Source of the DNA: Chrysomallon squamiferum
Taxonomy: Eukaryota > Mollusca > Gastropoda > Neomphalida > Peltospiridae
NCBI GenBank assembly: GCA_012295275.1
Contig: CM022674.1
Coordinates: forward strand, 7,766,409 to 7,830,408
DNA length: 64,000 bases
Direction of reading: 5' to 3'
Shown here: in pieces, positions 1 through 29,039 of the stretch
How positions within the stretch are numbered: the first letter of the stretch is position 1
Layout of the letters: each line of letters begins with the position of its first letter
The notes under the pieces: generated by a model
The model's input: the letters and a program-made list of their open reading frames with translations, nothing else
Told to the model about the DNA's origin: nothing
Databases searched by the model: none
Position numbers and translations under genes: made by a program

Positions 1-73
1 ATGATACTTTCAGGTGCGAGATTATTCATTTATTTCATTAAATGTTGACTGCAATATTACTGGGTTTTTTTAC

Positions 74-497: not shown

Positions 498-1385
498 TGT
501 TGTTGTTAAAAACGAACACAATCATCACCGTTATCATTTTATTCTTTTAAGAAGTGTTTCTATATTTTCTTAAATTAGTCATCTTATGTCAGAGTTTATT
601 GTCAAAGTTATGTTTTGCACTGTACTGAAACTGAAAATGTTTTTATTTGGAAAAAAACCTACTAAGATTTTTTGAGGCACATTCTTGTTGCGGGAATATA
701 GACTAGTGCATTTTAGTAACTATACGCATATAATATTTCACTTGATTTATTATCAGTCTTTCCATATTTCATCCATGTACCATGCCATTCGCTCTAGAGT
801 TATCCCTCATCTCTACTAACAGAACACCACAGCTCTGATATATTATACCTTGTTTTACTAACATTTTATAGACTTTAAACTGTAGTGTCAGGAACTTTTA
901 ATTATTTGGCAAGTGTTTTTAGATTGCTAAAACATGTTTTGACAAAACGCAATCTCTCAACCATGAAAATCATGCGGAAATACAGCATCAGTTATGTCCC
1001 TTCTATAGATGTCGTCTGTCACTAGTGTCCGAATTCAGAACCAAAATCTAATTATCTCTAAAAAATAAATAAATAAATAAATAAATAGAATCAAGAATAT
1101 TAAAGAAAACCAAAGCAAAAATGTAATTTTATTTTCTACAAAGGGAAACAATCTTGGAGTAATTATTTTCTCGCTAATAAATGATTAATTTGTAGTTATA
1201 AATAACCATAATGATAATCTAAGACTAATCATACTATACTTAGTGTAACTAGTTTTTGCATGTCTGACACTGTGACAGATTATATCAACATTTATCATCT
1301 TTAGAACGTAATGATTATTTATTGTTATTATTATTATAATCATCATCATCATCAACTCACAAGAACAATATTATGTAATTTTTAG
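498..1385 (+). other. Duplicate of copy B intron 1; no exon 1
   Basis: This stretch resembles 11,445-12,189 of copy B at many points: the GTTGTTGTTAAAAACGAA start, the cttaaattag/tatgtcagagttta block, and the run into the ZZ exon acceptor. Copy B's first coding exon is not present here; the inverted block occupies its expected place. A (AAAT)n run at about 1,061-1,085 is the only other structure seen. Confidence 0.65.
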
Positions 1386-4300
1386 GTTGTGTTCATAATC
1401 ATATTATATGTGATGTTTGCAAAATGGATCCAATAGAAGGTATGCGATGGAAGTGTGCTACCTGCAGTAACTTCGACCTTTGCACTCTGTGTTACATGAG
1501 TGGAAAACATGATCTTAGTCATCCTTTCCTTCTCCATCAAACACAGGCATCTACACTGTAAGTCATCAAACCTGAGATTACATGAATAAAACAACAAAGA
1601 AAAAAATATATATATATATAAAAATAATAAAATTTAAAAACAAAAAGTAAAAAGGCCTTTTACTATTAACAGTTTTGTATATTTATTTTATTTTGAATTT
1701 AAAACCAGTTTATCTTCACAAATGATTTTAAAAGGGAATGTATTAGTGCTTAAAAATGTTCATTTCTCTTAGAGTTCCTATTGATTCAAGAAAGATGCTA
1801 AAACCAGAAACTGTGCATGGAATTTTACCAGGTGCTAGTGTTAAGAGAGGGTTACACTGGAAGTGGAGTAATCAGGATGGTAAGTATTTTCTCAGTAAAG
1901 AGTTCACAGTGAGGTCAGTAGTGTACTTCTTACTATGTTAAAATACATTTATGGTTAAAATGGAAAATTAGAAGAATTTACACCAAGGAGTTTAGTAATT
2001 TTATACAATCATAAAATTTATTTTTTAAATCTTTGTGTTATTATTTATCAATATACTGTATTTAAATGGTGTTTTATTTCAGTAACTATGTGATAAAATT
2101 AATGATATGTTCCTCTGTATTTAATAATGTGATATCTTTTGAAGTTTTTTATTTTTATTAATATATAATAAAAGGAAACAATCTGACAAATATTACAAAT
2201 AAAAGTTAAGAACATTTCAGTGAAATTGTAGAAAGAAAAATATTCATTCATACAAGGGACAATCTGTGTCACACCTGATTTTTAAAATCATAAATATTGA
2301 GCTCACTCAGTAATATAATCATGGATCAAAATGGACAACTTTTTTCATTTAACCTGTTCCTTTGACAGGTGACAAATATATTTTTCATGTTTAATAAATT
2401 ATGAAATCTGAATTCTTTCCCCTACAATAATTGTGACAATAAGCATCACACTATTTTGTAATCATAAAGGTAATTAATTATACTGATTTCATTTAAGTTC
2501 CTTTAACAAATATATTTTTCTGTTTAGAAAATTATGAAAAGTGAATTCTTCAAATTTAGGTGGCAGTAAAGGAGCCGGTGATGTCATACGTTTAGTAAAG
2601 TGGTGAAAAATAGTTATAGAGGTGGTGTTAATGTTAAATGGCAGAATGATTCAGAGAATATCTACAGATACAGATGTGGAGCAGAAGGTTGTATGGATCT
2701 CATTCTGATTGCTGAAACACAACGCACGTATTACTTTCCACAGCATCTTCCTGTGTTAGGTGTGTTTCTTAAACTACCAGCAAATACATAACAACTATAC
2801 TAACAAATAATATCAAAGTGATGAATTAACAAACTAATCTGCATAAACCTGTTACTCATACAAAGTTTTAATAATTTTAGTTAATTATAAAAGAAGCAGT
2901 AATAGATGTACCACAGAAACTTGTAATAGTTTTTGACTTTTATTTTAATATCATTTTTTTTACTTTGATTAAATAATAATAGTAATGATGATAATATTAT
3001 GATGATGATGATAATGATGAAGATAAAATATTAACTAATGTAGTTTATGGGTTTAGATGTGAGAAGCCAGTCAGAATGTCAGCTGAAACCTGGAGACAAG
3101 GTACAAGTGGATATAGATGCCAAAATGGTGAAGAAAATTTTGTCAGAAACTAAAAGAATGTGGAATGAAAAGATATCTGATGTTTGTATTTATTTACTTT
3201 AATTAACTATAACATAAATGTAATTTATTCATTACATATAATACATCATGGAAAAAAGATATCTTTCTATCTGTATATATGAAATTATGCAAGTACCTTT
3301 CTTCTGCACTCAATTGTGTTTTGTCATTCAAATAAACAATTTTCATGCTTTAAATTTAATAATGACTGTGTGTTTCTGACTAAGGATAAGAAGAACAACT
3401 TTTTTTGTTCTATTTTATTGAATCTATTTACTGTTAATTTTTAATTTTATTTATTTATTTATTGATATTTTAAGTATTTGCTAATGCTTGGAACAGTCAC
3501 TGAAATAGAAGGCTCAAGAATAGCAAAAGTTCAGTATGAGGATGCACAGTCATGGTATTTCTTTAGATCAATGTTAACTAAGGTAATCTATTATTTACTT
3601 AATTTAAAATGTACATACCTTTGTTTTGTTTCTTTTTTATATATAATTAAAGAAATATTTATATAGTCTTTATTTAATTTCGAAATGTATCTCTTTAATG
3701 TTTTTTCTTCATTTTTATTTGACAAAGTATCTTCTATTTATGGTCTTTTCTTTATTTTTAGTTTAAAAGTATCTATTTGTAACCTTTTTTTATTTATGTT
3801 GTTTTATTTATTTTTCTGTAAAGAAATTCCATTTTATATTGTTCTATTTATTTTTTAGAAGTATCTTATTTATTTTTCTAAATTTTAAAGGAATGTCTAC
3901 AGATATCTAAATATTCTATATATATTTTTAATATAATTTATGTTTTCTTTTTTTTTTCTTTACTATGAACTAAGAAATATTTATGTGTTTCACATCAACT
4001 ATTTTCACTTTTTTCAGATTCACTCATTTTCTGTTGGTGAGACTGTTCAAATTCTCGAAAACATCATTTTCTTCAGGAGCTGTGAGACTGTTCAAATTCT
4101 GGAAAACATCAATGCTTTAATTCAGGAGCTTCAGATTGTTTTGAAAGGACATTTTGTGGCTGGAATGATGAAATGGCAAAATTATACATTTATTTTTCAA
4201 TTATTTTCCCTTAAATTTTTTTCACAATAAATGGTATCAAAATTAATTTAAAATTGTTTTATGTTTTGCTTCTGAAAAACCAACCATCACATAACACAGT

Positions 4301-5205
4301 CACAACATCTATAACCTAACTAGGTTGCATGAGTTACTTTTCTTACTTAACATAATTATTAATGTGGATTTGATGCCAGGCTCTTGGTGAGTTAGGAATC
4401 ATTGAGGCTGTTGATGATGATGGTGACCTGACAGTCAAAGTAGGAGAACAGCAGTGGATGTTTAGTCCTGTGTGTTGTCAGTATGTAGAGTCAGCTGATG
4501 ATAATGAATGAAAATTTCCAAAACGCCAGGTATCGGAGACACAAATGGAAATAATTTCTGGTGGTAAGTAAAACTGTTCATTTGTATTATTAGTAACAGA
4601 TTCTTCATTTTAAAACAGAACTGTTCAAGAGACTTACAGTAAGTAGCATCTGATGTAAAACAGTTCTGCTGGAAATATGGGATGTCATATATAGATTGTT
4701 AACTAAAAACAATATCCAACAAAGTTTATCAGTCTGCCAAGGTATCATCATCAAATAGCCTGGATCCACAACAAAAAACCCTGCTTACTATAATTATGAT
4801 GAACAGGTACTTCTTATTAGGTTCTGATGTACAAAGAATTAGACAAATTCTTATCTCAGTATTCTGATCATTACTCTGGTTAATTTATACCAAAGTTATA
4901 AATGTATTTTTTTATGTTTTATTTTTATATTTTGTTAATATAATTTTGTTTGTGTGAAAAAACATTAATGTGATTAAAATAAGTAATGAATATGATTATA
5001 TTTTTCTAGGTTTATGTTCAGGGTGAGAGTACTTGTTGGAAAATGTACAAAAGGTGAAAAAGGAATGAAAAAACCACCACCTGTTGACCAATCTGTGCCC
5101 GATGAACTCTATGACAGTGTCGTCAATAAGATAGACGAAACTAAGATATTTGTAATTTTTGACAATGCCCAGTGCTATGCAGAATACTTAATTGAGTACT
5201 ATTAA
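1386..5205 (+). pseudogene. Copy A: truncated, decayed duplicate of the MIB-ANK-PARP gene
   Basis: Recognisable exons by comparison with copy B: ZZ exon 1386-1557 (172 nt, intact); exon 3 1773-1879 (107 nt); second MIB/HERC2 exon 2560-2759; REP exons 3057-3181, 3475-3582, about 4018-4180 and 4380-4563; last PARP exon 5010-5205 with its stop. Lesions: exon 4 has TGG TGA in frame, a lost base and a 6-base insertion. Exon 7 has an internal tandem duplication and no longer has a GT donor. Exon 8 has an in-frame TGA at 4509-4511 where copy B has TCA. All ankyrin exons (copy B 9-16) and the first two PARP exons are missing. The deletion joint lies near 4,880-4,930, since sequence before it matches copy B intron 8 and sequence after it matches the last intron. 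It cannot encode a full protein. The ZZ exon and the last exon remain open and could be used by chimeric transcripts, but nothing here shows that. Confidence 0.85.
5010..5205 (+). pseudogene. Intact terminal PARP catalytic exon of copy A
   Basis: The acceptor tttttctag leads into an open 196-base exon ending in TAA, the same length as copy B exon 19. It contains RVLVGK, the PPPVD loop, ELYDSVV and KIFVIFDNAQCYAEYLIEYY, typical of the C-terminal beta strands of PARP10/11/12/14-type enzymes. It differs from copy B at about a dozen residues with no frameshift, in contrast to the upstream exons of copy A. Confidence 0.75.
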
Positions 5206-5700
5206 ACTGTTCACAAAAATGACAGCTAGACATGACATATGTGTTTGAACTCTTGGTTATAATACATTTGTGATGAAAGTAGTCTAAATATAAGGTGTTG
5301 TTAACTTACATTTCATTAAAGACATTAATAAAATAGATTACTAAAATGAAAAGTGATACAAAATCAATATCAGTGTGATATTCAAAGTTAACAGTCAGTA
5401 ATGAAAATTAATTTTATTAAGACAATTTTATTAATGACTGTGGTGCAGTTGTAATAATTTATATTTTAAATCTGTAGTTTTAAATGGAAACAAAAATTTT
5501 CAACCAGTTATTAAAGTTTTTCACTTAAAGTAATATTTAGAAATTATATTTTCTAAAACTAATTACACTGTAGTTCAGAATTATTTGAACATGTAATATC
5601 AAAATTGGAATTATTTACGCACACAAATATTTTATATTGAAAAACTATATATAATTTGAAAGTATTAGTAGCTAATAACTGATATGACAACTGTTAAACT
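5206..5700 (+). other. Former 3' UTR/flank of copy A
   Basis: AT-rich sequence clearly related to 28,087-28,640 downstream of copy B, starting directly after the stop (tgacagctagac is shared). No gene seen. Confidence 0.6.
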
Positions 5701-5703
5701 GCA

Positions 5704-6050
5704 TGATTCAAATGTATCATAAGATAATAACTGCTACCACTGCTGTAACTACGATTCAAATGTCTCATAAAATAATAACTGCTACATCTGCTGTAACTAC
5801 ATGATTCAAATGTCTCATAAAGTAATAACTACTACATCTGCTGTAACTACTTGATTGAAATGTCTCATAAAGTAATAACTGCTACATCTGCTGTAACTAC
5901 GTGATTCAAATGTATCATAAAATAATAACTACTACCACTGCTGTAACTACTTGATTCAAATGTCTCATAAAATAATAACTGCTACCATGCTGTAACTACG
6001 TGATTCAAATGTCTCATAAGATGATAGTTGAAGCCATAGTTAAAACTGCA
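5704..6050 (+). repeat. Minisatellite, about 50-bp unit, 7 copies
   Basis: Units contain gattcaaatgtctcataa followed by aataataactgct and ctgctgtaactac; successive gattcaaat starts fall about every 50 bases. A related array lies at the same relative place 3' of copy B (28,660-28,975), so it predates the duplication and has diverged independently. Confidence 0.85.
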
Positions 6051-11134: not shown

Positions 11135-11339
11135 ATGTCGGTAGGAGCACGTGTAGTTCGAGGTCCAGACTGGGCTGGTAAAGAGAAAGATGGTGGCGAA
11201 GGTGGTCTTGGAACAGTTGTGAAAGAGGATGTCACTAATGGCAAGGTGAAGGTCATATGGGACATAGGTTGCGAAGGTAGCTATCGTGCTGGATATGATG
11301 GACGATACGAACTCAGAATATATGATAACGCACCGACAG
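11135..11339 (+). CDS. Copy B exon 1: first MIB/HERC2 domain
   Basis: Encodes GARVVRGPDW, the DGGEGGLGTVV segment, a VKVIWDIG strand, YRAGYDGRYELRIYDNAPTG. This is the classic MIB/HERC2 fold signature (GxRVxRGPDWxW..DGG, then W, YRxG..G.YDL). The second W of the GPDW.W motif is not obvious. In Mind bomb this domain binds the Notch-ligand tail. It ends at donor CAG/gtaaaa in phase 1. Confidence 0.88.
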
Positions 11340-14300
11340 GTAAAATATTTAGAAAATGAAAATATCTATCACATCTTCTTCACCAAATGTAATATTATTT
11401 TTATTGTTGTTGTTGTTGCTGGTGCTGCTTCTGCTGTTGTTGTTGCTGCTAAAAACGAATAAAACGTTTATAAATAGTTGATTTTTCAAGATTTTAATCA
11501 TTAACAAAAATGATATATTTACCGTCATTATTTTATTTTTTTAGGATGTGTTTCCACATTTTCCTAAATTAGTTTTGATTTATGTCAGAGTTTATGTAGA
11601 CTTGTGCACTTTTAGTAGCTACAAGCATGTAATATTTCACTTGATTTATTATCCATCTTTCCATACTTCATCCGTGTACCTGCCATTCTCTGTAGAGTTA
11701 TCCCTCTTCCACCGTACTGTTAATAGAACTTTAATTATTCGACAAGTCTTTGCAGATTGTTAAAACATGTTTTCTCTCAACAATGAAAAACATGCGGGTA
11801 TACAACATCAGTTATGTCCCTTTGTCGTCTGACAGTTATGTCCCTTTGTCGTCTGACAGTAGTGTCCAAATTCAGAACAAGAATCTAATTATCTCCACAA
11901 AAAACTTGAATCAAGAATAGTAAAGAAAACAAAAGATAAATGTAATTTTATTTTCTTCAGAGGGAAACAATCTTGGTGTAATTTTGTTTTCTTTATAACA
12001 AATTATTAATTTGTATTTAAAAATAACCATAATGATAATCTAAGACTAATCATATTTTGTAGCCTATACTTAGTGTAACTAGTTTTTGTATGTTTTACAC
12101 TGTGATAGATATATAACATTTTACGATCTTTAGAACATAATGATTATCATCATCATCAACTCACAAGAACAATATTATGTAATTTTTAGGCTGTGTTCAT
12201 GATGCTGTTTTATGTGATGTTTGCGAAATGAATCCTATAGAAGGTATGCGATGGAAGTGTTCTACTTGTCATGACCTTGACCTTTGCACTCAGTGTTACA
12301 TGAGTGGGAAACATGATCTTAGTCATCCTTTCCTTCTGCAACAAACACAGACATCTCCACTGTAAGTCACCAAAACTGATAGAACGTGAAAACCAAAAAA
12401 ATTTAAAATATATTTTTAACAATTTTTCACATTAATTTTATTTTGAATTTAATACCACTGTATTTTCTCATATGATTTAAAAAAAGTATGTATTGTTGCT
12501 TAATAGTATTATTTACTTGTAATCTTTTCACTAATATATATATTAAGTTTCAATTTGTATGATATGTACAGGAGTGTACAGATAGACATGTCTCAGTCAG
12601 AACATGTTCATTTCTGATTTTCAGAGTGCCTGTAAATTCACGAAAAATGCTAAAACCAGAAACTCTACATGGAATTTTGCTAGGTGCTACTGTTAAGAGA
12701 GGGTTACATTGGAAGTGGAGTGATCAGGATGGTAAGAGTTTTCTCAGAAAAGAGCTCACAGTGAGTTAAATAGTGCACTTCTTACTCTGTTACATACATT
12801 TATGATAAAATTAGAGTTTTAAAAAGAAATCACAATTAAAAGAATTTACACCAAGAAGTTCAGTAATCATAAGACTGATTTTTTAAATCTTTGAGTTATT
12901 ATTTATCAGTATACTGTTTTTGATTGGTGTTTTATTTCAGGAACTACATATGTTCCTCTATATTTAATAATGTGATACCTACTGAAGTAATCTTACAGAA
13001 ATATTACAAATAAGAGTGGTCAACATTTCAATGAAATTGTAGAAAGAAAATATTTATTAAAGTGGTAAAGTCTGTGTGCTGCAAACCCACCTAAGACATT
13101 AAAGTCCTCGTAAATATTGAGCTCACTCAGTAATATAATCATGGATCAAAATGGACAAGTAATATTTCTGTCACCTGGTATGATAGGAGTTCAAACATGA
13201 TGTGACATAAACTGTATGGTGGCATAGCAACAAAAATAACAGTTGAAGTGTGATTAACTTTCCCCTATAATAATTGTGACAATAAACATCACACTATTTT
13301 GTAATCATAAAGGTAACTAATTACACTGATTTCTTTTAAGTTCCTTTAACAAATATCTTTTTCTGCTTAGAAAATAATGAAATCTGAAATTTGAAAGAAT
13401 CTGTCTTGCATCTTTTTGAAGAGAATTTTATTTAATTTTGTTCTTCAAATTTAGGTGGCAGTAAAGGAACTGGAGATGTCATACGTTTAGTAAAGTGGGG
13501 AAGAAATAGTTATCGAGGTGGTGTTGATGTTAAATGGCAGAACGGTTCAGTGAATACCTACAGATGTGGAGGAGAAGGTTGCATGGATCTCATTCTGATT
13601 GATGGGAAAAAAGACATGCATTACTTTCCACAGCATCTTCCTGTGTTAGGTGTGCATCTTCAATTATAAACTATACTAACAACTATAATATCAAAGTGAT
13701 AAATTAACAAACTAATTAAAAACTATACTAACAACTATAATATCAAAGTGATAAATTAACAAACTAATTAAAAACTATTTTTTTTGATCTGCACAAATCA
13801 TCCTGAGTTTTAATAATATTAGTTAATTCTAAAAGAAGCAGTAATAGATGTAGCACAGATGATTTTAATACTTTTTGAGTTTTATTTTAATACCATTTTT
13901 ACTTTGATTAAATAAAAATAGCAATAATGATGATGCAGGTGATTAGATTATGATGAAGATAAGATATTAACTAAAGTATTTTGTGGGTTTAGATGTGAGA
14001 AGTCAGTCAGAATGTCAGCTGAAACCTGGAGACAAGGTACGAGTGGATATAGATCCCAAAATAATGAAGAAAATTATGTCAGAAACTGAGGGAATGTGGA
14101 ATGAAAATATATCTGATGTTTGTATTTATTTACTTTATTTAATTATAACATAAAACTAATTTATTCATTAGAATTAATACATAATAAAAAAGATATCTAT
14201 CTATCTATCTATATATATATAAAAATTATGCAAGTATGTTTCTTCTGCACTCAACTGTGTTTTGTCATTCAAATAAACAATTTTCATATTTTAAATTTGT

Positions 14301-17300
14301 CTGTCTGTTTCTGACTGAAGGATAAAAACATTTTTATTTATTGTTTTGTTTTATTGATTCTATTTAGTGTTGGGTTGTTTGTTTTTTAAATTGTATTTAT
14401 TATTATTTTTCATTTTTTTTAAAGTATTTGCCACTGCTTGGGAACAGTCACTGAAATAGTAAACTCAAGAACAGTTAAAGTTCAGTATGAGGATGCACAG
14501 TCATGGTATTTCTATATATCAATGTTAACTAAGGTATTTACTTAATTTTAAATTAAAATGTACATACCTTTGTTTCATGTTGTTTTCTTTATATATAATT
14601 AAAAAAATATTGATACAGTCTTTATTTTTTATTTAATTTTGAAAGGTAAAGAAATATTTTTTTTTCATTTTAATTTATAAAGAGTTCTATTTATATTCTT
14701 TTTCTTTATTTTTAATTTAAAAGTATCTATTTCTAACATCTTTTTTTTTACATTTTTTATTTATTTTCTGTAAAGAAATTCCATTTTGTGTTGTTCTCTT
14801 TATTTATTTTTATAAGTATTTATACAGATTCATTTATTTTCTCTGTTGGTTTTAAAAGTTAAAAAATCTCTACAAATCTGAATCTTCTATATGTATTTTT
14901 TTAATATAATCTATCTAACATCTATTCTTTTCTTTTTTCTTTTTGAAATAAGAAAAAGTTATGTGTTTCACATCTTCTGTTTTCACTTCTTTCAGATTCA
15001 CTCATTTTCTGTTGGTGAGACTGTTCAAATTCTGGAAAACATCAATGACGTTCAGAAGCTGCAGGAAGGACATGGTGGCTGGAATGATGAAATGGAAAAA
15101 GTATAAATTTATTTTAATCTTGATTTCATTTCAAATTGTTTCAAAAACTGTTTAGCAGCACTGAGTCACAATCACAACATGAAATTTGTTTAGTCAATTT
15201 AATTATTATGATTAGTACAATTATTCATTTATTTTTTCAGTTTATTTCTTTCTAAGATGTAAAGTTTATATTTTTCACAATGAAAAATAAAATTATTTTA
15301 TGTTTTGCTTATTAAAAGTCAAACATCATAACACAATCACAACATGACATCATGTATAACCTAACTAGGTTGTATGAGTTACTTTCTGTTACTTAAAATA
15401 ATTATTAATGTGGATTTGATGCCAGGCTCTTGGTGAATGTGGAATCATTGAAGCTGTTGATGATGATGGTGACCTGAAAGTCAAAGTAGGAGAAGAGCAG
15501 TGGGTGTTTAGTCCTGTGTGTTGTCAGTATGTAGAGTCAGCTGACGAGAATGAATCAAAATCAGCAAAACGCCAGGTATCACAGACACCAATGGAGATAC
15601 TCTCTGGTGGTAAGTAAAAGTGTCAGTTGTATTATTAGTAACAGATTCTTCATGTTAAAACAGAACTGTTCAAGAGACATGAATTAGAATTACAGTCAGT
15701 ATCATCTGATGTAAAACTGTTTTGTTGAAAATAACATGGGATGTCATATATAGGCAGTTAACTAAAAACAACATGTAATAAAGTTTATCAGTCTGAATAG
15801 ATATCATTAACAAATAGCCTGGGATCATGAACAAAAAAGACCTGCTTGCTATAATTATGATGAATTGGTACCTCCTGAGATGTAGTCCTCTTAGTCTGTT
15901 TTCATTTACAAAGAACTAGACAAATTCCTATCTCAGTATATTGATCATTACTTAAATTAATGTTCATTTCTGATGTCATTAAAACTGACAAACAACAGAC
16001 AGAATGAAAAATAAAACAGTAAAATAAAATAAAAACAAAGAAAAATTGCTGCAAATAAATAAATATGCCATATCCAAATTTCATTCATTTTTGAAAATGA
16101 GCTGGAGTGATAATTTAAAAAAAACATGAAATTTTTTCTTTATCACTGATATGTATTTTTTTAACACTTTCAGACATTGGGGATAACATTAGTGAAATGA
16201 TTTTTAAAGCTGATACTGCAGGGAGATAAGAAAAGTTTACCTGAACGTCTTATGGAAGCAGCAGCACAGGAAGACATCAAAACTGTAAAAGAAATTCTTT
16301 CCAGTAATCCTAGTTTGGTAAGATCTTTTCCATAACTCTAGTTTCAACAGATATTTTTTCCCCAACCTCTAATTTGGTATCTTTTCTATAGTCACAATTT
16401 TTCAACATCATTTACAAAATCCTTGTTTGCTAACATCTTTCCCATAATACCAGTTTGGTAAGATATTTTCCCATAATTCTAGTTCTGTAATAGTCCAAAG
16501 TCCTAGTTTGTTAATATCATTTCCTATAATCCTATTTTGATCAGATTAAGTAACATCCTTGTCATAGTTCTAATGTCATAGCAATTGTTTCCATAATACT
16601 GTTTAAAAATATGCATTCTTATACCACATACAATTTTTTTTCATATGAAATTTGTCGAACATTGCTTGGTAAGAAATTACAAGATTTCCTTTTTTAAGTA
16701 TTCATGTGTTTACATGATTCATCAGTAAAAGATATTTCATTCCCTCCTAGATTTGTACATGATAAATTCAAAGTTATCTCAAATTAGTGTTAAATCAAAT
16801 ATTTGTGACATGTATACTGAAGAGATTTTCATCAAAGTGTGTTGACTCTATAATTATGTACAGTTTTAAACACAAAAGTTAAATCAGTTCAAGGTAACTG
16901 TCATTAATCATCAAACTAAGATTACTGAGGTAGTTTTCTTTTTCTATATTTTATCTTTATTTTTTTCAGACTACATATTTGGGGCATTTTGTAATGCACA
17001 AAATTTTAAATATATATAATAAGAGAAATGATGGTCAGAAATAAAACATTTTTATTCCATAATGAAAGGTTTTATTAAGAAAAGGTGTATACATATATGC
17101 AGGTGAATGAGATTGTGGATGGAAACAGTCCATTACAACTGGCTTGCTACACAGGTAGCAGTGAAGTTGTGAAAATTCTCTTATCATATAAAGCTGATCC
17201 AAATCTGGTTGATGAAGAAGGAGACACTGCTCTTCATTTTGCTGTTTCTCAGTAAGTTAAACTTTACATAACATCACTTCAGAGGAAGTTAAATCTGTAT

Positions 17301-18240
17301 ACAACATATCATTTCATTTAGCTGCTTTAGAGTAAGATTAAAACAACTCTTTCTTAAGCTGTTTATCAGTAAGTTAAATCTATATTTTTATATAACACAT
17401 CACTTCACCATGTGGTTTCATAGTAAGTTAAATATGTACCTTTAAATTATCACATCATTATTCTCTTTAATGCTGTAATTATACATTAAGTTATATATCT
17501 GTCTTTATATTAGATCATTTCATAATGCTGTTTTACTAATTTATATCTGTATTTTTATATAACATTACTTCATAATGCTGTTTTACTAAATTATATCTGT
17601 ATCTTTATATTACATCATTTCATAACGCTCTTTTACTAAGTTATATCTGTATCTTTACATAACATCATTTCATAATGCTGTTTCATTAAGTTATAGCTAT
17701 ATCTTTATATAACATCATTCCATAATGCTGTTTTACTAAATTATATCTGTATCTTTATATAACATCATTTCATCATTCTGCCTCACAGTAAGTTAAATGT
17801 ATATTTTTATCTAGCATGTCACTTCACCATGTGGTTTCACAGCAAGTTAAATGTATATTTTTATCTAGCATGTCACTTCACCATGTGGTTTCACAGCAAG
17901 TTAAATGTGTATCTTTAAATTATCACATCACTATTCTCTTTTATGTAACACAGATAAACATTGTGTTGTTTCATGATAATTATGTTTTTCAGAGGCAAAG
18001 ATGAAATTGTGAAAATCCTAACTGATAAAGGTGCTGACATGAACAAAAATGAATAAAAAAGGACTGACACCATGTCACCAAGCAGTGACTGCAAACAATA
18101 CAGAAATTGTGAAAATTCTCACTGACAAGGGTTGTGATGTTAACACACAGGTTATATATGTATTCATTTTCATTTTTTAAGATGTCACATATTTTCTTTT
18201 TATTTATTCAAAGGTGTATATGCATGTGTATGTGTGTGTC

Positions 18241-18272
<32 letters not shown>

Positions 18273-21200
18273 TGAGAGAGAGAGAGAGAGAGAGAGAGAT
18301 TAATTTTTAATACAATGACACAGTATATTTTTCCTCAGTATCTTGTACCTGTATTTTCAACTGAAGTTCACAAAACACATTTAAATATATATTTATTTAA
18401 TTTTGAACCTTGATTCTAATTATATTATAGAAAAAACAACACAGAAACCCACCTAAATTGCAAAAATGCCCTTTTCTAATTATTATTCCTGTTTGCAAAT
18501 TTTGCATTGATACATTTATTCTTGTAGCTTTATAATAAAGTTTTAACTTTGTATTGCATCTGTTAATTGTCAGTTTATTGTGATTTATAAAATTATTTCT
18601 TAATAATATAATTTTACATAATTATTTTTGAAAACATGATCTCTAATATTATGTAAACATTGAGTTTGTTCTGACAAAAGGACAATGATGGAGACACTCC
18701 ACTCCATGATGCTATGGATAACTACCCAATTTGTGAGATGTTGATGAAGGTGAAGAAAATTAGATGTGACATTTTCAACAGTGAGGGGATGTCTGCTTTT
18801 CATGTGGCTGTAATGAATAATAAAGAAAAGTATGTACAGCTTTCAGCTGTCAAGTCAGTCAGTTGCCTTTATCAGAATTTTTTAAAGATTTTATTATTAT
18901 TATTATTATTATTATTTTAAACTTTGTAGTCACATATCATTAAGATGATCTCTATAAAGTATCATCATGAAACAAATTTTAAACAACTTAGCTAATTAGA
19001 ATATTAATTGTACCTGAAACAAACCATTTATAGTCTTGGCTGTACTTGAAGAACATTCTGATATGTGAACACTCTTTGCTTTTGTTTTTTATTATGTCAT
19101 TGTCTTTCATGTAATCCTAGGTTTATAATTTGTATGATGTAACCACAACCTGAAAATAAATAAAAGTAAAGTTGTACAATGATTTCTTAGAAACAAAATT
19201 GAAAACGAGAACATTCTTAAAATGACCAGTAACTGCACCACCTCCTTGAATGAGGCACCTTGTTTGTTGTGAGATGTGACATGTGAAGTGGATGATGGGA
19301 TCCTGGTGGTTGAGTCATGATTGATGTCTGCAACTAAGATACATTGCCACTGACAATTATTCACTTTGGTCCAGAGTTCATGCAGCTAACAGCTATTGAT
19401 TTGTTTAATTTTACTAGGAACAAAGATGGTACTACTTATCTGTATCTGTCATTCCCTGAGGCTAGAAAAATGTTGAATAATCTTCATAATTAGTAGCACT
19501 TGTCATATGCTGCTGTTATTAGACTAACTTAACATGGTCAAATGAGGATAAATTTAAAAAGATTTCTGACATTCAGAAAATAAAGAAATGGAATGTTAAA
19601 GTAAAGACAGTTTATTCTAAATCAGTACAGATCTCTAAAGATTCTAAGAATCTTTCAAGAGGCTCATCAGGCTCCCTGGATTGGACCCACTTTTGATGAA
19701 TTAGTTGTTAAATATAATCCCATTTTTTCAGAAAACTTCCCCCAAAGACACTAATATTGTTAGTCACAAATTCAAGGAAATCAAAAACAGAGTCTCCAAG
19801 AAAGTTTTCTTTCTTGTTAATGAAAATATTTCCCAGAGTAAAGTTGCATAAAATACTAAATTTATTGGCTGTAGTCATAAAACTATGTGTTCAGTTTCAG
19901 TTTTAACCTTAAGGACCTTCAAGATCTCGTAGACCAACTCCTGTCCCCTTTTATTCTGATGGGAGATTTCAGTCATCATCACATTTTGTAGGAATATGAA
20001 GAAGGTGAATAACAGAGGTAAATAATTGGAAGATTTAATTCTCTAAAAAGATTTGATTCTTTTCAATGATAACAGCCATACATATTTTCACTCTATAAAT
20101 GGTACAGTCACTTCCATAGCTCTGGCCCTTTGTAATTTGTCTCTTTTTCTTGATTTCTCCAGGAAAATTGGTCCAAATCCTTCTGGTGGTGTCCACGTTT
20201 TTATTTATTTATCAGAATGATGGACAATTTCTTTCCTTGAAGAGTTCAAAGATGGATGCTGATGAAGGATTTAGGATCAATTCTGGCATCTATGCAGCAT
20301 CATCTGCACCAATCTTATTACAGAATTTGATGATCACATATGCTTGTTTACTTCCATCTTGAAGGACATTTCAGAAGAAACTATTCCTAAAACTAATGTT
20401 TCAATAAACCATGGTTTACTAATATTTGAAGAGATGCACTCAAAGAGCACTACAGAGCCCTAGAAAGGTTCATAGGTCTTATCACACTGGTAGAGCTAAG
20501 GCATGGGGAGATGTCTGGCTCATTAAGAAGACATCTTGGAGTAATTATGAATTCCAACATTATTTCCCAAACATCAGTAAAATGTGTAGAATAGGATTTG
20601 AAAAATTGCTGGAAAGTAACACTATCTACCATTTGTTGTGTCACTGCAAATGTATTGGCAAATAACTTTTCTCATAAATTTTCTTATTTTTAAGAAAGTA
20701 ATAAAGCTGAAAAGCATACTGTTAATTTTTTGTCTCAAACTTTTGAAGTACACGACAGTCCCTTCTCAGTAGAAGAGTTGCAGGTTGCTCTATGATGCTT
20801 CAACAGGCACAAACAAAATACACTACTAATTACTTAAACATTTACCAAGCTCTTCTAAACATTTTAATGAAATCTGGATTTTCTGGACTTTCCTTCTGAC
20901 TGGAGGATGGTTATAGTAATTCCTGCTCCAAAGGCTGTTAAGAATCCATCAAGTCCTGCTAATTATTACCCTGTTTCCTTGACAAACTGCATCTGTAAAA
21001 CAATGAAATGAATTATCAGTTGCAGATTTGTCTGGTTTCTTTATTACTAAAATGCAGCATGGGTTCATGTCCAGATGTAACTCAATTGATCAACTTGTTG
21101 GATTTGAAATATTTTGCAGGGAAATATTCATCCACAATAAACATCTAGTTTCAGTGTGTTTTGATTTGGAGAAAGCTTATGATGTAGTGTTGAAGAATGG

Positions 21201-24200
21201 TATTATGAAGGACTTCCACAGCTTCATTCTAAGTGGTCACCCTCCTATTTTTATAGATAACTTTTTTTAAAAGATTTTTAAAAATCTTGGATGACATCTA
21301 CATTTTCAGTTTGCAGCACAAGAGATGGGTGTAATTCAGGATAGTCAAAAACTATATTTTCAGTGAAAATTAACAGCATCACTCAGTGTTTAAAACCTGG
21401 TATTGATTGTTCTTTCTGGTTTGCTACAGATCATCCAAATTAATGGCGTCCAGGGTCAGCTGCAGCTTTGCATGAATAAACTTCAGCAATGGGCAACAGA
21501 TAATGGTTTTAGTTTTCAAAGACAAAGAGAGTCTGTATGCATATCTGCCATAAAAAAGATCTACATTTAAACCCACAACTATGTCCAAATCCTGTTGCGG
21601 AAAAGTTTGAGGTTTATATTTGGAAGGAGGTTATCCTTGGTACTCCATCAAAAATATGTTCAAAATACCTTAAAGACCCTGAGTATTTGAAAAATTACAG
21701 GCAGTAATGAATGCTCCTACTTTGTAGATCTTTTGTAAGGTCTAAATTGGATTATGGATTCAATGAATAATGCCATAACTGTTACTCACAAATGTATATA
21801 TACAGCCAAAATCTTAGACTTTGTTTTGGAGTGTTCAGACTTTGTATTGGAGAGAGCTTGTACCTGTAGATAGTTCTAAAGCCCGGGAACTGATATAAAA
21901 AAAAAAGGCATCCTCATCCAAATGTTTGCAGACTGACTATTTCTGCTATATAGTATGAAGATAAAATCATTACCAAAACATCCTACTTGAAATGCAGTTT
22001 CTGATAACAAATATATATTTGATGTGAGGCCAAGTGCCATTCCTATTTTTTGATTTTGTATCATGCAGTATTTAATCTGCTGCAAGAACTGATTTCTCTG
22101 ACATTTTGGAAACATATTACATATATTTTTTTTAACCATCTTGTTTCAAGCCATCAAAGACTGTGCTACATTTGGTGCATTCGAAATGGAAAAAAAAAAA
22201 TTGTTCAGATGCATCTCTATATCAGCAACTTTTAGTAGACATTCCAGGAAGATACTGTGACTGCATTTCTATCAGTTCAGATGAATCACCTGGATGGGAA
22301 TTCTGTGATGTGCAGTGTTTTTTGCATCAGACATTGACATTTCCATGAGATTGCTGGATTCAGTATGTTTATTACTGTTGAAGTTTGGGCAGACTTTAAA
22401 GCCCTGGAACTAATAAAAAAAGGCTTCATCCCAATATCTTATTTAATTGACACATTTTTTTGTGTCTCCAAGTTTACAACACATGAAGCTGGAACATCCC
22501 TTAATTGGGATAGTGATACAAAGATGTGTATTTTTTAATTTTTCCAATAAAGACATGAGTTTTTGTTGAGTACCAAGCCATGTTAACATAAAGGGTAATT
22601 ATTTTAAACACCACATGAGACAGTATATTTTTATACAGTTTTACCATTTAATTGTATATATAAATAATTTTTATACCTCTGTCTGACACAATAGCTAAAT
22701 TGTTTTATGACCTGGGATGTCATTAAACATTCACTCATTCACTGATTTGTAGACTCAAATGACTACTTATTGTCAATACATTCAAACAGTACTAGACTAT
22801 ATTGTTAGCAATCTAGTAAATAACACTTTTTTGATCTCATTCTTATACATTAATGCTGTTTGATTTCTGAAAGTGTGGTAAGTGAAAAAAAAACAAAAAA
22901 AAAACATGGTTTTTCCTTATATTGTTGATAATTATTTGAAAATTGATACAAAATATTTTTTCTTTTAATTTCAGGTTAGTGGAACTGATATTTAAAAACC
23001 AGCCATCAGTTGTCAACCTAAAGACAAAGAAAGGAGGATACACTGCACTGCACATTGCAGTTATCAATGGATACAGGTCTCTTGTCAGCTGTCTTCTTAG
23101 TAAGGTATTCATTTTCATTAAGAGATAAATGATGAATTGCTATTATTTTATTTATATCTAGTAGGAGCACAATGAATGATTGGTCTTCTATTATACTATT
23201 TTTATATCCAGTAGGAACATCAAGATGGATTTATTTTCATTACTTTATTTATATCTCTAGCAAGAACATCAAGATGGATTTATTTTCATTACATTATTTA
23301 TATCTAGTAAGAACATCAAGATGGATTTATTTTCATTACATTATTTATATCTAGTAAGAACATCAAAATGGATTTATTTTCATTACTTTATTTATATCTC
23401 TAGCAAGAACATCAAGATGGATTTATTTTCATTACATTATTTATATCTAGCAAGAACATCAAGATGGATTTATTTTCATTACATTATTTATATCTAGTAA
23501 GAACATCAAGATGGATTTATTTTCATTACATTATTCATGCATATCTGCAGTAGGAACATCAAGATGGATTTATTTTTCATTAATTATTCATATCTCCATT
23601 AGGAAACATATAACATTTTTATTTTCTCAGAAAGTTAAATCTTTATCTTATTCTAGACCTATCACTGCCTATATTTAACTTTTGATGCTGCTTCTCATAA
23701 GGATTTAACATTGTGTTTTAGGGAAAAGCTGATGTAAATGTTAAGGATAACAGTCACCAGACACCTCTTCATCTGGCTATGATCAGGAAATCTTTGCCTA
23801 TTGTTGACGTTCTTCTTTTCACAAGTGAGATTATGTTAAAGTTATTTTTTCTGCTTACCTATTGCTTATTTCTTAGGATATTTTTCAGTGTGTGTGTTTG
23901 TTTAGTTCATGTGTCTGTGTGTCACTATGTCAGTGGATGGGTCTGTGTGTCACTATGTCAGTGGATGGGTCTGTTTGCATCTGTATGTGTATATGTAAGT
24001 GTCCACATCTGTGTCATAGTCTGTGTTAGTATGTGTCTGGGGTAGGGGGTGTGAAAATGTACTATAATTTTGCTCTTATTTTTTGATAGATGCAGATGTA
24101 AATACTCAGGATATCAATGGAAATACACCATCACATTTGGTTCTTAAAAAACCTTCCTTAAAATTGCTAGTAAGTTATTTAGGAAAGAAAAATATTAATT

Positions 24201-27200
24201 TGATAAAAGTTTTATGTTGAAGTATATTATGCATTATTTAAAATTTGTGATGTCATCATGTCGAGATGGATCTGCTTGTGTTAAAGTTTCTACTAACATC
24301 ATAAAACTACAGTATCAACTTAAGTTAGTCAGTGTTTATTATAAATGTCTTGTAATATTATTAGTTACTTTTACTATCGCAAAATTTTTGAATGATGATA
24401 ATAAAATAATTACTTGGATGTATGAAGAATTTTAATAGACCATGTATTTGTAGCACCTATGATAACATTAAAACAGTAACATCATTAAAACAATAATAAA
24501 TTTATATGTTGTTGTCTGATGTTGTGTTGTTCATTTCAGGACACTTTTATCCAGGATGTGAATGAGATAACAGAAAAAGATGATACATCTATTGATATTC
24601 TTTACATGCTGGCTGATCAAGGAGCAAATCTCACAATAAAAAACAAAGATGGCAATACAACCATAGACCTGATACAAAACAAAGAATTAGCCAGGGTATT
24701 GATGAGGTAAATGCTAGGATTTCTTTATAAGCAGAATTATGAATTTCTCTTTTCAAAGTTTTTTTTTTTTAACACAGTAAATAAATACAGTTGCAATATC
24801 CTGTACTAAACACTTTAGCTAGCCACATGAAATGCAGTCACTTCCTCCTTTAGACTGCTCTCTGCTGAATATTAAACAATTATCTTAGTTATATTGATGA
24901 CTGCAGTTGAGTTATTTAAATTTATGAGTTAAAACTCATGTTCAGATACAGAATTGTTAAAAATTTATAACTAAGTAATATTTCTAAAATGACTCCTACT
25001 TTCAGAACTGCTCAAAATGTTAGAACTAAATCAAAAACAGCCACTGATTCACCCTCGTACTGGCAGTCCATGCAACAAAGTGTCAAAGTCCAGAAAATTT
25101 CTGTGAGTTATAAAGACCCCTTGACATCTGAAGAATATCAGAAAGTTTCCAATGATTTCAAGAGGACGCTCCCTTACAAATCTGTCATAGCAATACACAG
25201 AATTCAGAATCTTGACAGATGGGAACCTTTTGCTTTGTATGTATTCAGTATTCTGAACCTAATTTTCTTACATTTTATATAAGTGTTTGAATATGACATA
25301 TTTTAAGATTTGAGAAAAAAAAAATGTAATTAATGATTTAGCTTTTGATAAAAAAAAATCTATGACTTAAGATTAGTGATATTTTCCTAAAACTGACAGC
25401 AGATTTTATTGTAAATATTTCTTTGTCTGATTTGACTCATCAAATGCAGTTGCAGGAAATGTACTTGCTATTTAGCATAGCACATCATCATACTAAAGTA
25501 AATTCATTTTACATGCCGTCATTTGCCTTCATGAGCAGACATGTCCAAAGTCTTAATATTATCATTTACTTATATTAGACTGCATCCACCTTATCACATT
25601 ATCACATCACATCATTCATAGTAGTCTGTAATTTAAATGGGAAAATAAGAAAACCACATATTCAGAGATATGTGCTCTGATAGCATCATTGAATCAAAGA
25701 CTGCACTTTAACAAAAATATCAAAAATTATATAATAATTCATCTGTCACAAGATTAAAGAGAGAAATTATCTTTAATTATAGTATATTAAAAATTTCTTT
25801 AGCAGTATTATATGAAGAATTTACCAAATTTTGAAATTCCATACAATACTTCCAGGGTTTCCATGTTGCATATGAACCATGTTATATTGATGTCCAAAGA
25901 AATATATATTTGCAACTGATAACAAGGGCCATACTTAGAACATCTTTTTCTGACTTCACAAAGCCATTTTAAATTCCAGGAAAAAACAAATCATGGAACG
26001 AAATTATGGCCTAGATGGTGCAAATGAGCAACAACTGTTCCATGGTACCAAAGCAGACATTGTTGATCGCATTGTAAATCAAGGTATTGACTTTAGAGTG
26101 GTAAAGCGAGCATTGTATGGTGATGGTGCCTACTTTGCTTCAGAATCCAAAACATCTGATGGCTACACAGAACCAAATGAAGAAGGAAACAGGTAACACA
26201 AATTTTTAAAGTTTCATTAGAATGAACATGACCAAAATTTAATTGAAAATAAATACAACTCAGTGTATCTATGTGTGTGTAAATGTTTTAATAATCATAT
26301 TACATATATAAAAATAGTTTTCAAATGTTAATTTTAACATTAACCTGTTTAGAATGTTCATTTATCTGCAAATAATTAATAATTGCATAGTATTTGAACC
26401 TAAATCTTTCATAAAATTGAATTGATAAAAGAAGCTAGGTCAAAAAAAAAAAAAAAAAAAAAAAATAAACATATCAATTTTTTTTTTTTTTATTTTTCAG
26501 TGTAGTCCCTATTGCATCAAAATGCCTATTTTTGACATTATAAACATATCAATTTTATATAAATAATAAAAAACAGAAAAAATAATGAATTGAAAAATGG
26601 TTGCTGTTGGGTTTAATTTTTTTTTTATTTTTTATTTTTATATTTTGTGTTTGTGTGAGTTAATGTAATTAAAATAAGTCATTTGAGAAGCAAAATCTAA
26701 ATGCCTATCTTTGAATATTTCATATTTATATAAATAAAAAAAAAAAGAAGAAAAGAAAATAGTAGTCACAAAACAGGCTGAAAAGCTCATAGGCTAACAT
26801 TATGCCCTTGTGGAATATGACCACATACAGTTTATTTTTCAGTGTATACACTTCTTCCAGTGATGCTGCAGTATTTGGGTCCCCTTGGCATAGAAGTACT
26901 CAGCAGATATACTTCATAATGGTGGTTGTTGTTGGTTTTTTTTCAAAATTTAAAACATGATAATAAGATGGTGATAAATCAGGAGAGTATGGAAGGTTGT
27001 CAATCAGTTCAAGGTCGCATTGCAACCACAGATTTGTATGCTGAGGCATTGTAATGATAAAACAAGACCCCTTCATGAGTTTTCCTTGGATTTGATCTTG
27101 ATAGAGTTGTGCAACTATGTTAGCATGAATATCATCTGCAAGTACTTGTTAATACATCAAATTTTGTCCATTTTCTCTAAAATTTGCTATTAAATACTAA

Positions 27201-28086
27201 ACTCCAGATCCTATCATATAATTGAGTTTACATGGAAATAAAAAGAATGGAATATGTCAGTTATTACAACAGTTGAAATAACAATCAAAGATTTGTTGTT
27301 TGTTACTTCTTCACATTTTTACTTTTTAACCTACACAGGTTCCTCAATATCAGAATATGATATTTGCAGCCCCCCCAAAAAAAAAACACAACATTTTTGC
27401 CCAAATAATTCATTTACCATTTCATTCCAAGAGAAGGTGCCACGTTTCTAATATTGAAATTAATCAGTATTTGCTAGAAAGCAGGGGAATGACCCCCAGT
27501 TCTCACTGGTCAAAAGTCCTGCATAAAAACCTTGCAAACAAAGCAAAAACAATTCTTTGAGAACTAGACATCTTTATTTCACCCACCAACTTTACACAAA
27601 GCTGTGTTTTATTAATAGCTAATTTTTATTCAATGGGCTACATTCAGATTTTAATATTTTAATTACATATGTTTAATAATTTGTCTTTTCTATTTCAATA
27701 AGGCAGTCAAAATCATGTTAAAACATGTACTATTACTATAAATATTTATTAATGACTATTAATATATATTATTTCAATATAGAATTACATGTTTGAGCAA
27801 TGTATATGTGTTCTTTTATTTTGTGGGTGAAGAGACATTAGTTTAATTAAGTTAAAGAAAATTTTAATGAATATAATTATATTTTCATAGGTTTATGTTC
27901 AGGGCAAGAGTACTTGTTGGAAAATTTACAAAAGGTGAACAAGGAATGAAAAAACCACCACCAGTTGATGAGTCAAAGCCAGATGAACTCTATGACAGTG
28001 TCGTCAATAATGCATACGAACCTAAGATATTTGTAATTTTTGACAATGCCCAGTGCTATGCAGAATACTTAATAGAGTATCATTAA
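11135..28086 (+). CDS. Copy B: MIB/HERC2-ZZ-MIB/HERC2-REP-ankyrin-PARP gene, 19 coding exons, three 1-bp frameshifts
   Basis: Exons: 11135-11339, 12190-12361, 12625-12731, 13455-13649, 13993-14117, 14425-14533, 14996-15100, 15426-15609, 16174-16317, 17103-17251, 17993-18150, 18681-18829, 22975-23104, 23722-23824, 24090-24169, 24540-24706, 25006-25236, 25980-26192, 27891-28086. Phases agree throughout once three single extra bases are discounted: GGG for GG in exon 6 (about 14,440), GGG for GG in exon 9 (about 16,227), and an extra T in exon 11 (about 18,054). That gives 972 residues. Domains: MIB/HERC2 2-68, ZZ 71-122, MIB/HERC2 146-224, REP-like 227-385, about ten ankyrin repeats 410-760, PARP 785-972. 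Mind bomb ubiquitin ligases share this order up to the ankyrins and then end in RING fingers; none is present here. The predicted role is target recognition through MIB/REP/ANK and mono-ADP-ribosylation by the PARP domain (inference). The ATG at 11,135 is chosen because the MIB domain starts directly after it. It may be a young pseudogene. Confidence 0.85.
12190..12361 (+). CDS. Copy B exon 2: ZZ-type zinc finger
   Basis: Cysteine pattern CDVC..., WKCSTCHDLDLCTQCY, then H...H in KHDLSHPF, matching ZZ zinc fingers, which lie between the two MIB/HERC2 domains in Mind bomb. All zinc ligands are visible. The same exon in copy A (1386-1557) is also intact. Confidence 0.9.
12625..13649 (+). CDS. 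Copy B exons 3-4: second MIB/HERC2 domain
   Basis: Exon 3 (12625-12731) supplies the linker and VKRGLHWKWSDQDG. Exon 4 (13455-13649) supplies GDVIRLVKW, VDVKWQNGSVNTYRCGGEGC, MDLILI and HYFPQHLPVL. In copy A the same exon 4 is broken by TGG TGA. The intron after exon 4 starts with a 50-bp direct duplication (about 13,660-13,770) that copy A lacks. Confidence 0.85.
13993..15609 (+). CDS. Copy B exons 5-8: REP-like (Mind bomb repeat) region
   Basis: Two repeats of the Mind bomb REP type: GDKVRVDIDP ... MWNEN ... GTVTEI ... VKVQYEDAQSWYF, and GETVQILENI ... GHGGWNDEMEK ... LGECGIIEAV ... LKVKVGEEQWVFSPV. In MIB1 this region binds the second site on the Notch-ligand tail. Exon 6 (14425-14533) is 109 nt against 108 in copy A because CTTGGG replaces CTTGG, which shifts the frame; skipping exon 6 would keep frame. 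The donor after exon 5 is a weak GTTTGT, and copy A has the same. Confidence 0.8.
16174..24706 (+). CDS. Copy B exons 9-16: ankyrin repeats
   Basis: About ten ankyrin repeats across eight exons. Visible helices include SPLQLACYTGSSEVVKILLS, TALHFAV, TPCHQAV, TPLHDAM, SAFHVAV, TALHIAVINGYRSLVSCLL, TPLHLAM and TIDL. The order and the MEAAAQEDIKTVKEIL opening resemble the Mind bomb ankyrin block. Exons 9 and 11 each carry one extra base. Exon 11 also has a poor donor (ACACAG/gttata). The intron between exons 12 and 13 (4.1 kb) holds a LINE. Copy A lacks all of these exons; one equivalent of exon 16 lies inverted at 74-240. Confidence 0.88.
16318..16580. repeat. Degenerate tandem repeat starting at the exon 9 donor
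   Basis: The junction AGTTTG/gtaagatcttttccataa is echoed several times downstream (for example cagtttggtaagatatt near 16,450, cctagtttgttaatatc near 16,505, and further weaker units), roughly every 60 bases. Confidence 0.55.
17252..17935. repeat. Tandem repeats of about 50-54 bp filling copy B intron 10
   Basis: Units of the form aacatcatttcataatgctg, ttttactaaattatatctgt. Early units (17,300-17,430) and late units (17,800-17,910) carry tttca.agtaagttaaat, resembling the exon 10 end plus donor (GTTTCTCA/gtaagttaaac). The last 54-bp unit is duplicated almost exactly. Confidence 0.8.
18240..18300. repeat. (TA)n-(CA)n-(GA)n compound microsatellite
   Basis: Consecutive TA, CA and GA runs in copy B intron 11. 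Confidence 0.93.
19390..22745 (+). mobile_element. Degenerate Jockey-like non-LTR retrotransposon (LINE)
   Basis: Order along the + strand: endonuclease remnants (PFILMGDF near 19,945; YIFSLYK-like near 20,075; near 20,105 the bases for the typical ALCNP segment, then PNPSGGVHVF around 20,165); reverse transcriptase (WRMVIVIPAPK near 20,905; QHGFMSRCNSIDQLVGFE and VSVCFDLEKAYD at 21,055-21,190); the C-terminal domain (KLDY near 21,750, NLRLCFGVFR near 21,810); and an RNase H-like end (PSHVNIKGN near 22,575). The tail taaacattcactcattcact at about 22,720-22,742 resembles the 3' end of such LINEs. Many stops and shifts make it inactive. It sits in the sense direction in copy B intron 12. The 5' limit is uncertain. 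Confidence 0.85.
23210..23590. repeat. Minisatellite, 47-bp unit, about 8 copies
   Basis: Unit: aacatcaagatggatttatt then ttcattacattatttatatctagtaag. It lies in copy B intron 13. The unit's tagtaag...ttttcatta resembles the exon 13 junction CTTAGTAAG/gtattcattttcatta at 23,097-23,120. Confidence 0.88.
23885..24040. repeat. GT-rich region with a 31-bp direct repeat
   Basis: GTGTGT-rich stretch containing gtgtcactatgtcagtggat twice in tandem (23,919 and 23,948). Confidence 0.75.
25006..28086 (+). CDS. Copy B exons 17-19: PARP catalytic domain (mono-ART type)
   Basis: Exon 17 gives EEYQKVSNDF and the IHRIQNLDRWEPF strand. Exon 18 gives LFHGT (catalytic His, about residue 858) and ALYGDGAYFA (catalytic Tyr, about 888). 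Exon 19 gives FRARVLVGK, ELYDSVV and KIFVIFDNAQCYAEYLIEYH, then TAA. In tankyrase and PARP1 the polymerase glutamate sits at the start of the strand that here reads IFVIF, so the triad is H-Y-I, as in mono-ADP-ribosyltransferases such as PARP10 and PARP12. There is no WWE domain before it; ankyrins lead straight in through a Ser/Thr-rich linker (KSKTATDSPSYW). Confidence 0.9.
26442..26490. repeat. Poly-A and poly-T runs
   Basis: About 23 A, then shortly after about 14 T, with atgcctatttttgac-like sequence on both sides of the mariner insertion (26,521 and 26,700). This may mark duplicated flanks. Confidence 0.6.
26683..27862. mobile_element. Insertion in the last intron of copy B carrying a mariner remnant
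   Basis: Copy A's last intron joins aaaataagt to aatgaatat without this 1.2-kb segment, so it is an insertion in copy B or a deletion in A. On the minus strand, about 27,140 to 26,780, it encodes decayed mariner transposase: a piece around the HDNA motif position, ELIDNLPYSPDLSPSYYH (the third acidic residue of the catalytic triad appears as Tyr), then a tail resembling the usual C-terminus. It contains frameshifts and stops. No clear terminal inverted repeats were found. Confidence 0.65.
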
Positions 28087-28659: not shown

Positions 28660-28975
28660 ATGATTCAAATGTATCATAAGATAACAGCTGATGCCACAGC
28701 TGTAACTACAATTCAAATGTATCATAAAATAATAACTGATGCCACAGCTGTAACTATGTGATTCAAATGTATCATAAAATAATAATTGCTACCACTGCTG
28801 TAATTATGTGATTCAAATGTCTCATAAAATAATAACTGATGCCATGCTGTAACTAAGTGATTCAAATGTCTCATAAAATAATAACTGATGCCACAGCTGT
28901 AATTATGTGATTCAAATGTCTCATAAAATAACTGATGCCATTGGTGAAACTACTTGATTCAAATATGTCATGAGA
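28660..28975 (+). repeat. Minisatellite, about 50-bp unit, 7 copies (copy B equivalent)
   Basis: gattcaaatgt.tcataaaa then taataactgatgcca and cagctgtaactat, repeated about every 49-50 bases. It corresponds to the array at 5,704-6,050. Confidence 0.85.
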
Positions 28976-29039
28976 TATAAAAGCTGATACCAAAGCTGAA
29001 AATATGTGATTGACAAATGAAAAATGACAGATATCTTCT

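Follow-up and report, generated by a model that had tools for sequence, protein, structure and literature searches.

The stretch of DNA considered here (the window, 64,000 nucleotides) comes from the scaly-foot snail Chrysomallon squamiferum (GenBank assembly GCA_012295275.1, contig CM022674.1, positions 7,766,409 to 7,830,408 of the forward strand) and carries a gene that combines the domains of a Mind bomb protein with a PARP catalytic domain. Rebuilt from the raw sequence, the gene consists of 19 exons on the plus strand, from the ATG at 11135 to the TAA at 28086, and the encoded domains are arranged in the order MIB/HERC2, ZZ, MIB/HERC2 (together designated MZM), Mind-bomb repeats (REP), ankyrins and PARP catalytic domain; proteins of this order are termed MIB-PARP below. 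Two sister copies, designated A and B, lie in C10:7700001-7766500, directly upstream of the window (the prefix C10 marks positions on the chromosome that carries it). Copy A (~C10:7702600-7719591, minus strand), at a distance of 47 kb upstream, has an uninterrupted frame through its 19 exons, which are joined in phase throughout and flanked by GT-AG splice sites; it encodes 971 amino acids.

Exon 1 (11135..11339) contains the start codon and the first MIB/HERC2 domain and shares 92.7% nucleotide identity with exon 1 of copy A, while exon 2 (12190..12361) encodes the ZZ zinc finger (Pfam PF00569) with GT-AG sites and the phase of copy A. The second MIB/HERC2 domain starts in exon 3 (12625..12731) and occupies exon 4 (13455..13649), which holds the best PF06701 stretch (protein residues 146-210). 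The Mind-bomb repeats extend over exon 5 (13993..14117), whose copy A counterpart aligns to the MIB1 structure 4xi6, exon 6 (14425..14533), in which the frame is broken by one base extra relative to copy A, exon 7 (14996..15100; SH3_15, PF18346), and exon 8 (15426..15609), which ends in a linker and has an alternative donor after 15575. Exon 9 (16174..16317) comprises a linker and the first ankyrin; its frame is broken, and an alternative acceptor would move its start to 16222. Ankyrin repeats are encoded by exons 10 (17103..17251), 11 (17993..18150; frame broken, one base extra compared with copies A and B), 12 (18681..18829; 149 bases identical to copy A), 13 (22975..23104), 14 (23722..23824) and 15 (24090..24169), and the last ones by exon 16 (24540..24706); the corresponding exon of copy A ends in phase 2, like the last ankyrin exon of MIB2 before its RING exons. 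The PARP domain (PF00644) begins behind a linker in exon 17 (25006..25236), continues in exon 18 (25980..26192) with the HGT and YGDGAYFA motifs that contain the catalytic histidine and tyrosine (99.5% and 100% identity to copies A and B, respectively), and ends in exon 19 (27891..28086), which includes the third residue of the catalytic triad, an isoleucine in PKIFVIFD, and the stop codon TAA. The ends of exons 8, 9, and 17 were set by comparison with copy A. Within intron 12, decayed reverse-transcriptase-like frames (FDLEKAYD) of an element without long terminal repeats were recognised by eye at about 20120-21707.

In the read-through protein of the window gene, Pfam identifies two MIB_HERC2 domains (4.7e-34), a ZZ domain (7.5e-10), the Mind bomb SH3 repeat (5.1e-24), ankyrins, and a PARP domain at residues 776-946 (8.1e-24), the latter with a PF00644 score of 84.7 bits against a curated cut-off of 26.7. 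A RING domain was not called by Pfam in this protein, and none was found by a C3HC4 regular expression or by tblastn with MIB2-type RINGs (best E 4.5) in the 130-kb cluster, which is composed of the window and 66 kb upstream, 5,200 bases of it being N, and includes intron 16 (299 bp; 24707-25005). As controls, the same two procedures recovered the RINGs at two RING-MIB loci on the same chromosome; the regular expression missed the second RING of MIB2, so that tblastn is the better test. A hidden RING exon is thus rejected for the cluster as a whole and for the intron between ankyrins and PARP in particular, and the original prediction that the RING fingers are replaced by a PARP domain holds for the protein, its relatives and the cluster.

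Two database searches recovered the MIB-PARP order in 40 distinct proteins among the matches listed; 28 of the 40 have a named source, and all of these are molluscan. When the first 390 residues of copy A served as query, 100 rows were obtained. Of these, 37 combine PF06701 with PF00644, and a RING is listed for none of them; every one of the 25 whose source is named is a mollusc (Gigantopelta, Patella, Haliotis, Mytilus, Ostrea, Saccostrea, Pinctada, Mercenaria, Mactra, Potamilus, Ylistrum, Argopecten, and Mizuhopecten). A query with the PARP portion of the Mercenaria protein retrieved 38 rows; in 14 of them the two families occur together, and Mya as well as more Ostrea and Pinctada proteins were thereby added. 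The PARP part of copy A by itself gave 4 rows with one MIB-PARP relative (Gigantopelta). These searches favour close relatives, and the restriction to molluscs applies to the matches listed. MIB_HERC2, ZZ, SH3_15, ankyrin, and PARP are each present in 40/40 relatives (matches at E up to 0.1), and RING is absent from their precomputed Pfam lists and from the 25 of 30 families listed in their domain scan. Most of the named rows of the N-terminal search (19 of 25) are designated E3 ubiquitin-protein ligase in the databases, and some are called poly(ADP-ribose) polymerase in UniRef; the molluscan MIB-PARP proteins bearing the former name are probably not ubiquitin ligases.

Full-length open frames of 2922-3099 bases occur in 12 relatives (source 'lgn') on contigs of 3320-4368 bases, which we read as assembled transcripts because the window gene spans 17 kb for an equal frame. 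The alternative that two neighbouring genes were joined by prediction only has next to no probability: the order recurs in the 40 proteins, of which 12 are encoded by contigs of 3.3-4.4 kb, and the phase-2 join of exons 16 and 17 is present in copy A and, as read by eye, in a second, divergent MIB-PARP gene at C10:10310169-10298843, whose two PARP exons are open (the frame check covers these two exons; the stretch holds 1,709 N). We therefore reject a mis-joined model and conclude, as had been proposed, that a single gene joins the ankyrins to the PARP domain. The statement that no described protein of this order is known is also supported: no description of it was found in the open-licence literature (listings with the starts of abstracts). 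The sequences themselves are already public; their meaning, as far as this literature shows, is not.

The same genome carries a two-RING MIB2 some 0.8 Mb from the window (C10:6981955-6994067) and, on C6, a MIB1-like gene; in the 30 kb around the latter, regular expression and tblastn found no RING. When the introns of copy A are placed on the MIB2 of its own genome, in which splice sites were assigned according to the splice consensus and the match to two bivalve RING-MIB2 proteins, 12 of 16 coincide in residue and phase, three others agree in phase at a distance of 2-5 residues, and one has no counterpart; the PARP exons of copy A start where the RING exons of MIB2 start, in the same phase (2) and within 5 residues. 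The simplest account is that a MIB2-type gene was duplicated and that, in the duplicate, a PARP cassette took the place of the RING exons via that intron. In a tree of the MIB half (61 rows), the 32 MIB-PARP rows (30 of the 40 relatives, copy A and the second MIB-PARP gene, which fills 46% of the columns) group together with one truncated unionid model in a single clade, with bootstrap support of 100 and a Shimodaira-Hasegawa-like approximate likelihood-ratio value (SH-aLRT) of 98. The same clade received support of 98 in a quick tree of 66 rows, five of which, long or odd, were dropped for the careful one; the quick tree labels the C6 gene 'RING' by assumption. Near-duplicate or degenerate MIB-PARP rows (10/40) and 32/63 non-PARP rows of the N-terminal search stand outside these trees. 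A protein of the sister group, P0080, has at its C-terminus an apparent partial RING, judged by eye, which Pfam did not call; if right, it fits a loss of the RING on the branch to MIB-PARP. Elsewhere in the genome, further MIB_HERC2 matches occur in arrays on C8 (~0.74-0.78, 7.75-7.78, and 8.54-8.64 Mb), at least one match being followed by a RING pattern, which represents a Mind-bomb expansion, and matches to the PARP catalytic domain above the family cut-off are densely arrayed at C10:15.28-17.43 Mb.

Polymerising PARPs have a glutamate as third residue of the catalytic triad, while mono-ADP-ribosyltransferase PARPs do not. The triad of MIB-PARP is H-Y-I/V: histidine and tyrosine are each found in 40/40 relatives, and the third residue is isoleucine in 36, valine in two, and a gap in two. 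Copy A has the motifs HGT and YFA, which recur in exon 18 of the window gene. The domain thus belongs to the PARP (ARTD) superfamily, since it passes the PF00644 cut-off and has the histidine and tyrosine features, and it shares with mono-ADP-ribosyltransferase PARPs a third residue other than glutamate. Its nearest relatives are PARP12, PARP15, and PARP14 (2e-35 for PARP12/15 against 5e-7 for tankyrase), in agreement with the catalytic site of PARP12/14/15 type that had been predicted. Because of the conserved triad and the kinship with PARP12/15, MIB-PARP is predicted to be a mono-ADP-ribosyltransferase. A quite improbable alternative is that MIB-PARP, having lost ligase activity, is a non-catalytic competitor that occupies the clients of RING-bearing Mind bomb proteins, with a PARP domain that is structural or modifies only itself. 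This would suit the gripping modules, which are the same as in the RING paralogue that this genome retains, but the invariant histidine and tyrosine speak against it, as does the conservation of the PARP domain, whose identity to copy A in eight species (41-67%) is almost as high as that of MZM (47-74%), which argues for selection on catalysis.

The account we favour, and consider reasonably probable, is that MIB-PARP is a molluscan Mind bomb paralogue in which the RING end was swapped for a PARP12/14/15-type domain and which ADP-ribosylates its clients. It draws on the structure of copy A, the single origin of the MIB half, the introns shared with RING-MIB2, the triad and the occurrence in gastropods and bivalves, all of them observed by computation. 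The RING ubiquitin-ligase end would have been exchanged through the intron behind the ankyrin repeats. To judge from the known families, MZM-REP and the ankyrins would hold protein tails in the manner of MIB1, and single ADP-ribose units from NAD+ would be attached by the PARP domain to the bound protein or to the enzyme itself. With less certainty, the targets would overlap with the RING-MIB clients of the same cell, be it Notch-ligand tails or others, and ADP-ribosylation would compete with or modulate their ubiquitination; the originally proposed marking of Mind-bomb-type clients with ADP-ribose instead of ubiquitin is our best guess. Since the RING-bearing MIB2 remains in the genome, MIB-PARP is an added branch and not a substitute for the ligase of the pathway. 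Deltex ligases are regulators of Notch. According to a published study (PMC7615817), protein-bound ADP-ribose, among others that on the auto-modified catalytic domain of PARP10, is ubiquitylated by Deltex-type ligases. A more elaborate scheme, which we hold to be speculative and rather improbable, has two writers on one chassis, RING-MIB adding ubiquitin and MIB-PARP mono-ADP-ribose to the same tails, from which Deltex may build a hybrid ubiquitin-ADP-ribose mark. Such a hybrid mark would provide a switch, specific to this clade, in the traffic of Notch ligands or in immune signalling. That nature has exchanged a ligase end for an ADP-ribosyltransferase while the recognition half was kept means that the mark on a set of clients might change by one intron-mediated domain swap, and with MIB-PARP it can be examined directly whether, on Mind-bomb clients, ADP-ribose substitutes for ubiquitin, prevents its attachment or prepares for it.

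Several observations weigh against this account of a client-modifying Mind bomb paralogue. In a quick tree of the PARP domain, the MIB-PARP members (including L007, the second MIB-PARP gene) cluster but do not form a strict clade: the group also encloses the HSP70-PARP protein P0107 of Dreissena and the long-branch GTPase-PARPs P0002 and P0003, four label changes are needed, and the relevant forks have support of 87-89, so that a single origin is derived from the MIB half. The ankyrins show 31-50% identity to copy A in the eight species and are the least conserved of four domains in seven of them (in Patella, REP is lower), and client specificity may therefore have drifted. No source states that the 'lgn' contigs are transcripts; that reading follows from size. 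Compared with copy A, the window copy has one base extra in each of exons 6, 9, and 11 and is not open as assembled, copy B (C10:7743130-7760923) is frame-broken in exons 5, 8, and 9, and the ratio of nonsynonymous to synonymous substitution rates (dN/dS) between local copies is 0.57 for A-C and 0.70 for A-B. These values are high, as in relaxed or fast-evolving copies, and give no strong purifying signal between the young copies. As a side observation, P0107 (Dreissena polymorpha), named HSP70 12A-like, combines a weak HSP70 match with a PARP domain and represents another bivalve PARP fusion.

Of the collinear, in-phase exon series originally proposed for the window, order, strand and splice sites were confirmed, while the frame of this copy is interrupted. 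An alternative donor and acceptor pair (15575/16222) would skip the break in exon 9; those in exons 6 and 11 stay. The architecture is independent of the broken window copy because copy A is open in all 19 exons. Whether the window copy alone is a pseudogene that yields no protein, the function residing in copy A and perhaps in the gene at C10:10.30 Mb, seems to us about evenly balanced, and this is compatible with the other explanations. The three single-base breaks relative to copy A favour it, as do a deleted copy and a lone exon that adjoin the window copy; against it, the splice sites are intact, exons 12-18 match copy A at 96.5-100%, and residual indels are possible in a Nanopore-based assembly with N runs in the cluster. 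The genome report describes this assembly as polished with Illumina reads and gives a heterozygosity of 1.38% (PMC7142155). Because of the N runs and this mode of assembly, the window copy, a member of a local gene cluster, is either a young pseudogene or affected by residual assembly errors.

In the deleted copy (1385-5202), exon 19 comes immediately after exons 2-8, so that the stump of a Mind bomb protein bears a PARP tail; the lone exon-16-like piece is inverted (73-255, minus strand). Similar tandem arrays of ~50-bp units lie 3' of the gene (28661-29011) and 3' of the deleted copy (5697-6026), as if the 3' flank had been copied too. In addition, an incomplete copy with exons 1-12 (C10:7681521-7672285) and scattered fragments lie near the sister copies, and an N run of 5000 bases (C10:7761409-7766408) stops exactly at the window start. 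Outside the gene, an open frame on the plus strand of the window (55068-55544) encodes an agrin NtA domain (PF03146, 5.9e-27).

Mammalian MIB1/2 act on TBK1, and PARPs of the PARP12/14/15 kind are linked to antiviral responses. MIB-PARP might thus be a fast-evolving innate-immune factor with signalling kinases or microbial proteins as targets of ADP-ribosylation, its Mind-bomb half supplying immune clients. The tandem, partly decayed local copies, the elevated dN/dS between them and the kinship of the PARP domain with PARP12/15/14 agree with this; tandem copies, however, arise in non-immune families too, and copy A and the protein of the clam Mercenaria keep 49% identity in MZM and 47% in PARP. 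On balance, we regard an immune role of this kind as unlikely and prefer the modification of Mind-bomb-type clients.

MIB-PARP shares with Mind bomb 2 and Mind bomb 1 the MIB/HERC2-ZZ-MIB/HERC2 module, the Mind-bomb SH3 repeats and the ankyrins. The MZM-REP part of copy A aligns with human MIB1 (4xi6) at E 4.7e-82, and there is a fold match to 4xi7. In the Mind bomb family, MZM and REP bind the N-box and C-box of Notch ligands. In contrast to both Mind bomb proteins, no RING was found in MIB-PARP, and a PARP domain forms the C-terminus; MIB-PARP is thus a Mind-bomb paralogue that lacks the defining RING and is not a Mind-bomb ligase. Unlike PARP12, PARP14, and PARP15, the window protein is without WWE, macro, and CCCH domains (Pfam) and has the Mind-bomb substrate-binding half instead. 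With the tankyrases (ankyrin-SAM-PARP), it shares the plan of an ankyrin-guided PARP, ankyrins being followed by PARP, but it has no SAM domain (Pfam), its PARP domain is much nearer to PARP12/15, and the third triad residue is isoleucine. The consulted portion of a 2010 survey of PARP evolution does not mention a Mind-bomb PARP and notes a U-box PARP in Dictyostelium (PMC2964712). This protein, DDB0232928, has a U-box/macro/PARP composition and links a ligase-type domain to PARP. Whereas in DDB0232928 the ligase-type domain stands beside PARP, MIB-PARP keeps only the recognition half of a ligase.
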